A stretch of 64,000 nucleotides of DNA from Sphingobium sp. BYY-5. GTDB taxonomy: Bacteria; Pseudomonadota; Alphaproteobacteria; Sphingomonadales; Sphingomonadaceae. Location: NCBI RefSeq assembly GCF_022758885.1, contig NZ_JALEBH010000001.1:3317501-3381500 (forward strand), written 5' to 3'. Below the pieces are notes generated by a model that was given only the letters and a program-made list of their open reading frames with translations, was not told the DNA's origin and made no database searches. Made by a program: the position numbers and the translations under genes. This document shows, one piece after another, positions 10,958-37,339 of this stretch. Each line of letters opens with the position of its first letter. Positions within the stretch are counted from its first letter, which is position 1.

Positions 10958-10965
10958 ACCAACCT

Positions 10966-11043
10966 CCGTTCGCCCTGAGCCTGTCGAAGGGCCGTTCTTC
11001 TTCAAAAGAATGAGCGGGGCTTCGACAAGCTCAGCCCGAACGG
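10966..11043. repeat. Interspersed inverted repeat, family B, between argD and argF
   Basis: Left arm from 10966 (CCGTTCGCCCTGAGCCTGTC) and right arm ending at 11043 (AGCTCAGCCCGAACGG) face each other around a spacer of about 25 bp. Same family as 3721-3818 and 40615-40695. It fills nearly the whole argD-argF gap and would form a hairpin in the shared transcript. Confidence 0.8.
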
Positions 11044-11059
11044 CTGTGGGGGTAATGAT

Positions 11060-14353: not shown

Positions 14354-15001
14354 ATGACTTATGCGGTCAAGGAAATGTTCCTGACCCTGCAGGGGGAAGG
14401 GGTGCAGGCGGGGCGTCGCGCCGTGTTCCTGCGCTTTGCCGGCTGCAATCTGTGGAGCGGGCGCGAGCAGGACCGGGCGAGCGCCATCTGCCAGTTCTGC
14501 GACACTGACTTCGTCGGAACGGACGGGCTTGGCGGCGGCAAGTTCGCCGATGCCGACGCGCTGGCCGACGCGGCGCTCGCCTTCTGGGGCGAGGACGGCG
14601 CGGGGCGCTATATCGTGCTGACCGGTGGCGAGCCGATGCTTCAGATCGACGATGCGCTGGTCGACGCGCTCCACGCGCGCGGCTTCACCATCGCGATCGA
14701 GAGCAATGGGACGCTGCCCGCCCATCCCGGCATCGACTGGGTCTGCATCAGCCCCAAGGCGGGCAGCGACGTGGTGCAGCGTTCGGGCAACGAACTGAAG
14801 CTGGTCTGGCCGCAGCCGGGCGGCGGGCACAGCCTGGCCGATGTCGACGCCATGTCCGGCTGGGCCTTCGACCATCATCTGGTCCAGCCGTTGGACGATG
14901 CCCATGCCGTCGACAATGCCCGCGCCGCGATCGCGCTGGTCATGGAGCGTCCGCAATGGCGCCTGACGCTGCAGGCGCATAAATATCTGGGATTGCGCTA
15001 G
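14354..15001 (+). CDS. queE: 7-carboxy-7-deazaguanine synthase QueE (radical SAM)
   Basis: QueE converts carboxytetrahydropterin to 7-carboxy-7-deazaguanine using a radical SAM centre. In the 215-residue product the cluster cysteines are spread as AGCNLW, then ICQFCDTDF after a 14-residue insertion, the long-loop variant of QueE rather than CX3CX2C. TGGEPML near residue 95 is the SAM-binding GGEP. It follows queC by 12 bp. The queC-queE pair provides preQ0 for queuosine; no tgt or queF lies nearby. Confidence 0.92.
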   Translation: MTYAVKEMFLTLQGEGVQAGRRAVFLRFAGCNLWSGREQDRASAICQFCDTDFVGTDGLGGGKFADADALADAALAFWGEDGAGRYIVLTGGEPMLQIDDALVDALHARGFTIAIESNGTLPAHPGIDWVCISPKAGSDVVQRSGNELKLVWPQPGGGHSLADVDAMSGWAFDHHLVQPLDDAHAVDNARAAIALVMERPQWRLTLQAHKYLGLR

Positions 15002-15009
15002 GCAAACGC

Positions 15010-15190
15010 GCGACACCGACGCGACAGGCCGAAGTACACAGTGTCGTTAAGCCAAAAAAATGGCCAATTGCGCCTGTAAAACGACAGAAACGCAACAGCG
15101 AGGCGACGGCAACGCGCCCATAACGCGACAGATATGCGCCACGGACGCGCCATCCACGCGACAGTGAGGCGACACCGGCGCGACAGGGGG
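15010..15190. repeat. 11-bp tandem array, consensus GCGACAGNNAC
   Basis: Eleven contiguous 11-bp units run from 15070 to 15190 without a slip (15070, 15081, 15092, 15103, 15114, 15125, 15136, 15147, 15158, 15169, 15180). Two further units start at 15010 and 15021. Positions 2 and 5 (C) are invariant in the contiguous block and position 3 is G in ten of eleven. Eleven is not a multiple of three, and the unit is close to one helical turn, so a protein- or DNA-structural role is more likely than coding. It begins 9 bp after queE. Confidence 0.85.
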
Positions 15191-15233
15191 AGCGGAAATA
15201 ATAGCAGGATGCATTGATGGGAACCCATACCGA

Positions 15234-15305
15234 CCTGTTCCCCGGCGAAGGCCGGGGTCCAGTTCCACGGGCTGAACTGGACCCCGGCCTTCGCCGGGGA
15301 ACAGG
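15234..15305. repeat. Perfect 32-bp inverted repeat (family A)
   Basis: Bases 15234-15265 and 15274-15305 are exact reverse complements around an 8-base loop. The core CCCCGGCGAAGGCCGGGG relates it to the family A elements at 2824 and 57164, but here the arms are perfect. No T-run follows, so it is not a standard terminator. Confidence 0.9.
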
Positions 15306-15554
15306 CAGCCGATTTTAGGGAGTCATTCTCTCTTTGCAACTTGGCATAAGGTGTCGGATGCGGGTTCATCCGACAGGATAGATCAGAGAAAATCCTACAT
15401 TGGAAGGGTTAGGGAGCGCAGCGAGCTTTTGCCTTATCCATCGGAAGAGCGCCACTAACGCGGCGTACCCACCCCCGGCCTTCGACAGAGTCACGTGCCT
15501 CTGTCGAACCTTGAAAGGGAGGGGAGAAAGAGGATCGCTAGCGGACCGGTCGAA
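15306..15554. other. Non-coding remainder of the queE gap: two small hairpins, no gene seen
   Basis: The stretch holds TGTCGGATG/CATCCGACA arms near 15352-15376 and a 10-bp inverted repeat TTCGACAGAG/CTCTGTCGAA at 15481-15508. Short open frames here have no recognisable content. It separates queE from the converging 15555-16256 gene. Confidence 0.55.
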
Positions 15555-37159: not shown

Positions 37160-37297
37160 CTTGCGGTTGCATTCCATGCAACTGCTGTTTTTCCCTTCGC
37201 ATTTGCGAAGGTGCCGGCCGGTTGGCAAAGGAGGTGTGCCTTTCAGGCATCCTCTCCTAAAAACTTTCAGGCTGGTCTTCGGACCGGCCTTTTTTTT
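37160..37297 (+). ncRNA. Candidate small RNA 1: four hairpins ending in UUCG terminator
   Basis: Successive stems: GTTGCAT/ATGCAAC (37166-37182), CCTTCGC/GCGAAGG (37194-37211), a GGAGGTGTGCC/GGCATCCTCT stem (37230-37255) that hides an AAAGGAGGTG sequence, and a terminator (37270-37297). No convincing coding frame of the right style fills the stretch. Promoter is not evident. Possible alternatives are a leader of a lost gene or a terminator-only region. Confidence 0.4.
37270..37297 (+). terminator. Strong terminator with TTCG loop and 8-T run
   Basis: GGCTGGTC (37270-37277) pairs with GACCGGCC (37282-37289) through a TTCG tetraloop, then TTTTTTTT (37290-37297). Only plus-strand transcription is served; no plus-strand protein gene precedes it within 1.8 kb. 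Confidence 0.9.
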
Positions 37298-37339
37298 GTC
37301 GCATCGCTGCGCTAGAGGGGCGTTGCTGATGCCGCGCCA

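Follow-up and report, generated by a model that had tools for sequence, protein, structure and literature searches.

Behind queE in the 64-kb stretch of the Sphingobium sp. BYY-5 genome analysed here (the window, whose own coordinates are used throughout) lies an array of short direct repeats set at an exact 11-bp step. We interpret the array as a rigid lattice of DNA sites for a short helix-turn-helix (HTH) protein related to the small terminase subunit (TerS) of phages, and the copy in the window as a gene-less derivative; from the sequence comparisons below, we give this interpretation a probability of about 0.6. Genome searches indicate that the array is not a feature of queE but a member of a dispersed family of intergenic elements.

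Eleven adjoining units, each exactly 11 bp, occupy positions 15070-15190 (starts 15070, 15081 and so on to 15180), as an earlier note made from the letters of the window had described. The array is far above chance expectation: the longest run of GCG[AC]C at lag 11 in the window is 8, while 200 dinucleotide shuffles of all 64 kb, examined at lags 7-19, gave longest runs of 2 (137 shuffles), 3 (62) and 4 (a single shuffle). Self-identity of the array is 0.595 at lag 11, against 0.161 at lag 10 and 0.173 at lag 12, and the top 30 lag-11 scores of the whole window all fall in the array region. Tandem Repeats Finder did not report the array at a score of 30, presumably because the units are too diverged. 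The C at unit positions 2 and 5, which the note had called invariant, is present in 11 of 11 units; its broader statement that the first five bases stay constant is correct for these two positions, but the remaining motif positions differ in three units (ACGAC, GCAAC and GCGCC types).

Comparison of copies, 60 at first and then 20 regions of which three were already included, gave a common layout: zero to two in-phase units, a core (CCGAAGTTCACAnnGTCG, consensus CCGAAGTTCACAnnGTCGnnGGG), an AT-richer spacer, the array, a G-rich stretch, and a conserved block, CATC....CAGGATAGAYCAGARRAAATCCTACATTGGAAG. The element profile was built from 37 non-orthologous copies, three of 40 representatives having been left out because they had no recognised core. 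In the window the parts are as follows.

15010..15031, + strand: two array-type units, GCGACACCGAC and GCGACAGGCCG, upstream of the core (sequence).
15029..15048, + strand: conserved core, CCGAAGTACACAGTGTCGTT in the window, consensus CCGAAGTTCACAnnGTCGnnGGG (profile of the 37 non-orthologous copies).
15049..15069, + strand: AT-richer spacer from core to array (sequence).
15070..15190, + strand: array of 11 direct 11-bp units, consensus GCG[AC]C[AG]NNNNN (sequence, lag analysis).
15234..15305, no strand: palindrome between array and block, resembling repetitive extragenic palindromic (REP) sequences (sequence, fold, repeats in relatives).
15364..15407, - strand: conserved block, which in full copies probably serves the HTH gene as leader or promoter (genome search, profile).
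15369-15367, - strand: start codon ATG, 5 bp behind the block (sequence).
14998..15369, - strand: open frame of 123 amino acids (aa) from the conserved ATG through palindrome and array (translation).

The units at 15010 and 15021, noticed previously as outliers, are present but are not outliers; they belong to the element, together with the core.

Several searches define how widely the element is dispersed. In this genome, a pattern of three GCGACA motifs at 11-bp steps with up to two mismatches gave 39 matches, compared with none for a reversed-pattern control; they represent 17 array loci and one lone match near C1:1.86 Mb that has neither core nor block. The block was found at 17 places (control, none), a count that, like all block counts here, includes the leaders of the HTH genes themselves. 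The union of the array and block searches is about 21 element loci, on both large replicons. Within the genus the block occurs in 37 of 94 genomes (control, 0), with the maximum, 17, in this genome, while a family sample yielded it in 7 of 298 genomes, two of them Sphingobium and five spread across four other genera. An exact block scan of named genomes returned 42 stretches (38 Sphingobium and four metagenome-assembled records), and the array pattern with one mismatch was present in 2 of 119 family genomes, one being this genome. A plasmid collection contained two element matches, both on large Sphingobium replicons, and a phage collection contained none. The loci from the genus block search, the queE search and the 20-kb comparison of relatives are the matches listed. 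No repeat family of this description appeared in the titles or abstracts of the literature searched, which lay mostly outside subscription journals.

Two copies in this genome (L035 and L036, C1 2.316 and 2.326 Mb) are near-identical and stand in inverted orientation at a distance of about 10 kb. Judging by matches of their flanks in G162 and G144, the segment between them has probably been inverted. In G147 and G159 several copies (among L127-L150) begin the array with GCGCTCGCRAR-like units at the same 11-bp step, followed by the usual units, and this is a unit type specific to that lineage.

The spacing of the units rarely slips. Of 77 copies, seven without a recognised core were left out, and in the remaining 70 elements 1651 of 2322 motif pairs within 130 bp are at multiples of 11, and 18 deviate from such a multiple by one; in none of the 70 do adjacent motifs lie 10 or 12 bp from each other, and the flanks of the same elements show no spacing preference. 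Helical phase extends to the core. Core-to-array distances in 36 copies cluster one turn apart (7 copies at 35-39 bp, 14 at 46-51, 7 at 58-61, 3 at 69-72 and 5 longer), and array phase relative to the core takes 6 of 11 possible values (2-7), with a mode of 3 in 15 of 36 non-orthologous copies (Rayleigh nR2 14.1, which is not an independent-sample test because the copies share descent). Array-type motifs upstream of the core pile up at -11/-10 (22) and -22/-21 (14) in the 37 non-orthologous copies. Phase relative to the block is far looser (R 0.25). Rigid spacing that is kept across a variable spacer points to double-stranded DNA.

The bases of the units are conserved in a pattern that is also consistent with binding sites. 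A unit reads R-C-GCG-H-C-R or R-G-GTC-A-C-R, GCG units mostly following AC or GC and GTC units mostly following GG or AG. Between orthologous copies (24 pairs, 204 aligned units), identity at positions 1, 2, 3 and 5 is 0.97, 0.85, 0.80 and 0.92, and at positions 6-11 it is 0.46-0.70; for random unit pairs the corresponding values are 0.98, 0.65, 0.61 and 0.89, and 0.29-0.47. Positions 1 and 5 are therefore fixed everywhere, and the unit type, GCG or GTC, is kept in place. The spacing, the preservation of motif positions between orthologous copies and the phasing of the array to the core together argue for phased DNA-binding sites under selection, as the note had proposed. In the refuting test that it named, loss of the 11-bp spacing in related genomes, the spacing proved to be kept, but at loci other than queE.

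Helical periodicity over more than 100 bp of intergenic DNA is also a property of strong gyrase sites such as that of phage Mu and BIME-2, one of the bacterial interspersed mosaic elements (BIMEs), and phased bendability could in principle wrap the array around GyrA. The E. coli gyrase motif spans 130 bp with a 10.75-bp GC periodicity, and BIMEs are intergenic gyrase sites, according to the accessible portion of PMC6379681. That motif, however, is symmetric and degenerate in GC percent, whereas the units here have fixed base identities and are strand-asymmetric: in 546 motif-picked units, column 3 is G at 0.78 and C at 0.17, and column 10 is A at 0.51 and T at 0.04. The array is moreover one-sided relative to the core and follows a specific gene, being tied to one gene family. 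We regard a gyrase site as the least probable of the explanations considered.

Action of the array in a transcript, as a lattice for a single-strand-binding protein or as a structured RNA with the block as promoter, is very improbable as well. Transcription across the array is plausible, given that the block stands at the gene start in full copies and that the ATG is kept in gene-less ones. The window copy folds strongly (z -8.5), but the predicted structure includes the long stem of the palindrome; a palindrome-free copy folds modestly, with z -1.6 for the plus strand and -2.7 for the minus strand, the latter better than 200 of 200 shuffles. The Rfam covariance models gave no match over the array at their gathering scores, and the suggestion of a structured RNA array was not borne out. 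An RNA would have no need of a helical phase maintained over the core-array spacer, nor does the absence of neighbouring motifs 10 or 12 bp apart favour one, and the frame from the ATG is not conserved. In the window this frame resembles the HTH gene in its first codons only (MNPHPTP), and we read it as a probable gene-less remnant, not a gene; in the other gene-less copies the frame ends anywhere between 9 and 298 aa, the upper value being set by the length of sequence translated.

The palindrome at 15234-15305 is a separate high-copy repeat, inserted inside the window's copy of the element. Dozens of separate copies of the region at about 15235-15304 are found in relatives G147 and G159, among the matches listed. 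The array itself is made of direct repeats instead of the palindromic 20-40-bp unit of the REP type. RAYT, a Y1 transposase gene, is linked to REP/BIME elements, and the family described here resembles that system in being short, intergenic and present in many copies, few of which carry a linked gene; it differs in its non-palindromic 11-bp direct array, its conserved ends and its linked HTH protein.

In full copies of the element a gene for an HTH protein of about 90-110 aa lies between block and array on the opposite strand, with its ATG 5 bp after the block. One such locus of this genome is at C1:1961431-1961730, and a second HTH gene (L417) is accompanied by seven in-phase units. A genus search with the protein (E 1e-15) gave 75 matches in 39 of 94 genomes, and a family search (E 1e-14) found it in 33 of 397 genomes. 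At the first 30 genus loci, the best match per genome, the gene is followed directly 3' by two or more in-phase units in 30 of 30 cases, and a core is present in 29; one more locus came from the family search, and the remaining 44 were added later. For counting, a short HTH protein was one of up to 125 aa, with L228 counted by its truncated frame.

Over all loci counted, three or more in-phase units directly follow the 3' end of the gene at 69 of 77 short-HTH loci, which come from three genera, and at 0 of 33 loci with longer TerS-like genes (Fisher p 8e-21). The first 66 loci contributed 32 of 34 short and 0 of 32 longer (five of which have two units), and the 44 later ones 37 of 43 short, while the single longer one has none. 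On the opposite strand, used as a control, at least three units were found at 5 of the 43 later short loci. The genera with a short HTH gene and array are Sphingobium, g91 (G334, G398) and g72 (G231). In G334 there are two gene-less copies as well, which share the array unit and the block but have a core of their own. The short protein occurs in 28 of 30 genomes with two or more block copies and in 11 of 64 with none or one, a difference (Fisher p 8e-13) that is confounded by phylogeny. The block, at up to six mismatches, precedes 39 of the 77 short and 1 of the 33 longer genes, so the array is tied to the gene more closely than the block is.

Some loci depart from this arrangement. At L451 (G188) a short HTH gene has six in-phase units on its own strand and not on the opposite one. 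At L211 and L212 (G050 and G318, genus g51) the block precedes another kind of gene (by eye, MAISFQIIREG... in L211), which suggests that the block is a promoter or operator serving more than one gene. At L209, L210 and L213 (G385, G361) it leads longer TerS-like genes of 260-369 aa. The gene at L213 (locus L262) showed no array alongside, and L209 and L210 were not counted.

An array of this kind also recalls the centromere parC of plasmid R1, where about ten direct 11-bp repeats are bound in a rigid lattice by ParR. There, in the part of PMC9426499 available, ParR requires two or more 11-bp repeats and acts as the seed of a solenoid when on parC, and the title of a reference in that paper gives the number of direct repeats as ten. 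By analogy, a ParR-type or other small protein could bind the repeats head to tail and tether or partition the chromosomes, leaving the HTH gene with another job; the presence of copies on both large replicons is compatible with this. The copies here, by contrast, are chromosomal, many, dispersed and in either orientation, the partner is an HTH protein and not a ribbon-helix-helix one, and at the 69 of 77 loci counted above it is the HTH gene that adjoins the array. No ParM family was present among 19 neighbours scanned; a search of the genome for ParM (PF06406) was silent, but it was silent in the controls too. We consider a centromere-like role quite unlikely.

All 26 HTH proteins scanned match PHROG 4044, terminase small subunit (best E 4.9e-10), and 13 of the 26 match Pfam Terminase_2 at E 0.01, below the family cut-off in the member shown. 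The predicted structure is an HTH followed by one long helix (65-82, pLDDT 74), with middling fold matches; no terminase core domain was recognised in the protein. In excerpts of the phage literature, neighbouring HTHs in TerS rings are about one turn of B-DNA apart (PMC4737164), and rings of 8-11 subunits are proposed to wrap about 100 bp of DNA (PMC6854486). The element shares with phage TerS/pac systems a TerS-type HTH domain and repeats beside the gene of the protein, and about ten units at one-turn spacing fit the 8-11 HTHs and roughly 100 bp of the wrapping model. It differs in that the array is 3' of the gene and base-specific, there are about 20 scattered copies, and neither phage-family neighbours nor phage relatives were found. 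Among the nearest neighbours on each side of 10 HTH loci (19 proteins), 12 match Pfam families, none of them phage (UDG, glutaredoxin, IF-1 and MetH, for example), and 7 are without a match at E 1e-5. No relative of the HTH protein was present in 50,697 phage records or in plasmid records, and none was confirmed in IMG/VR. We have not filed the element as a member of the TerS-pac class because phage context is absent at the nearest neighbours.

Under the favoured interpretation, the HTH protein made by full copies would bind each unit on one face of the DNA, and some 10-12 subunits side by side would bend or wrap about 110-130 bp. Occupancy would be expected at the protein's own gene and at about 20 other intergenic sites. 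The cellular role is the least certain part: the candidates are nucleoid anchoring, autoregulation, and a role in DNA selection by a helper phage or gene-transfer agent. A more specific version, which we put forward as a speculative and rather doubtful proposal, is a phage-free chromosomal system of TerS-pac type, in which a short orphan TerS-like protein on 10-12 phased sites would form a nucleosome-like particle of 110-130 bp both beside its own gene and at some 20 intergenic stations, the stations being nucleoid anchors or entry points for the packaging of Sphingobium DNA by a helper phage or gene-transfer agent.

A number of observations weigh against the interpretation of the array as a lattice for the HTH protein. 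The 44 later loci lowered the linkage of array and gene from 32 of 34 to 69 of 77. In the spacing analysis 653 of the 2322 motif pairs do not fit the lattice and are found chiefly at 5, 6 and 9 modulo 11, and the motif pattern (GCGHC or GTCAC) was chosen after the array had been seen. Units were selected by motif and their alignments set by the best match of the variable positions, and random unit pairs are equally alike at positions 1 and 5. Finally, the TerS domains of SF6 show little specificity in binding and the wrapping of DNA is under dispute, judging from extracts of the TerS literature, while this array is base-specific.

Copies that have no HTH gene, that of the window among them, appear to retain traces of one. 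An ATG is found at 5 bp from the block in 71 of the 85 copies that lack the gene; in copies with a TerS-like gene it is at this distance in 11 of 12 and at 4 bp in the other. The 85 include L211 and L212, from the other genus, which precede a different gene. In the 71 gene-less copies with this ATG, the second codon encodes D, E or N in 44 cases and the third Q or P in 46, which matches the start of the HTH protein (MDQ, MEQ, MEP). On this sequence likeness, the gene-less copies look like deletion derivatives of the HTH-bearing form, and the window copy would be one of them.

The queE copy is young and was gained in this lineage. Array, core and block were found behind queE at none of 29 other queE loci (30 loci listed; 93 genomes with a queE match), and this result does not support the supposed link of the array to queE. 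Around queE, 20 kb is collinear in four relatives, and the distance from queE to the convergent gene is 551 bp in the window compared with 236, 95, 13 and 7 bp in the relatives. Other copies of the element are old: they stand beside one and the same upstream gene in more than one species.

Gain after queE in this genome only, along with the retained ATG distance and HTH-like codons 2 and 3 of the 71 gene-less copies, would be expected of a non-autonomous mobile element that is bounded by core and block, has in the array a subterminal site for a mobilising enzyme and has given rise to the gene-less copies by deletion from the HTH-bearing form. However, 37 copies gave no clear target-site duplication above a shifted-pairing control, the sole excess being one 4-base offset pair (5 of 37 compared with at most 4 in the control) away from the element ends. 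No terminal inverted repeats were seen by eye, the linked protein has no match to a catalytic domain, and the several copies at the same upstream gene in several species indicate that movement is not frequent. Mobility also leaves unexplained why the lattice persists at old copies, and we judge it an unlikely explanation.

The upstream flank is common to a relative's copy in 12 of 17 copies of this genome, and both flanks in only one (L032). For six copies, matches to the downstream genes in six relatives were found at least 4 kb from any listed element. The elements may cause rearrangement breakpoints, but the element is also nearer the upstream gene, which alone could give one-sided sharing of flanks.

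Two further features of the window lie apart from the element. Another short intergenic inverted repeat, at 10960-11049 (TTCGCCCTGAGCCTGTCGAAGGG...), has several to many copies in 4 of 4 relatives searched, and positions 37231-37304 (+) match the Rfam suhB/mmgR small RNA at 45.9 bits.

A non-coding repeat family is here tied to a candidate protein by sequence alone, which makes its function directly testable. If the HTH protein binds the lattice, the elements would provide a natural, base-specific case of TerS-type HTH domains lined up on phased DNA, an arrangement that is under dispute in phage packaging. Should the stations serve packaging or nucleoid architecture, they may mark a route by which a phage DNA-selection protein turned chromosomal.
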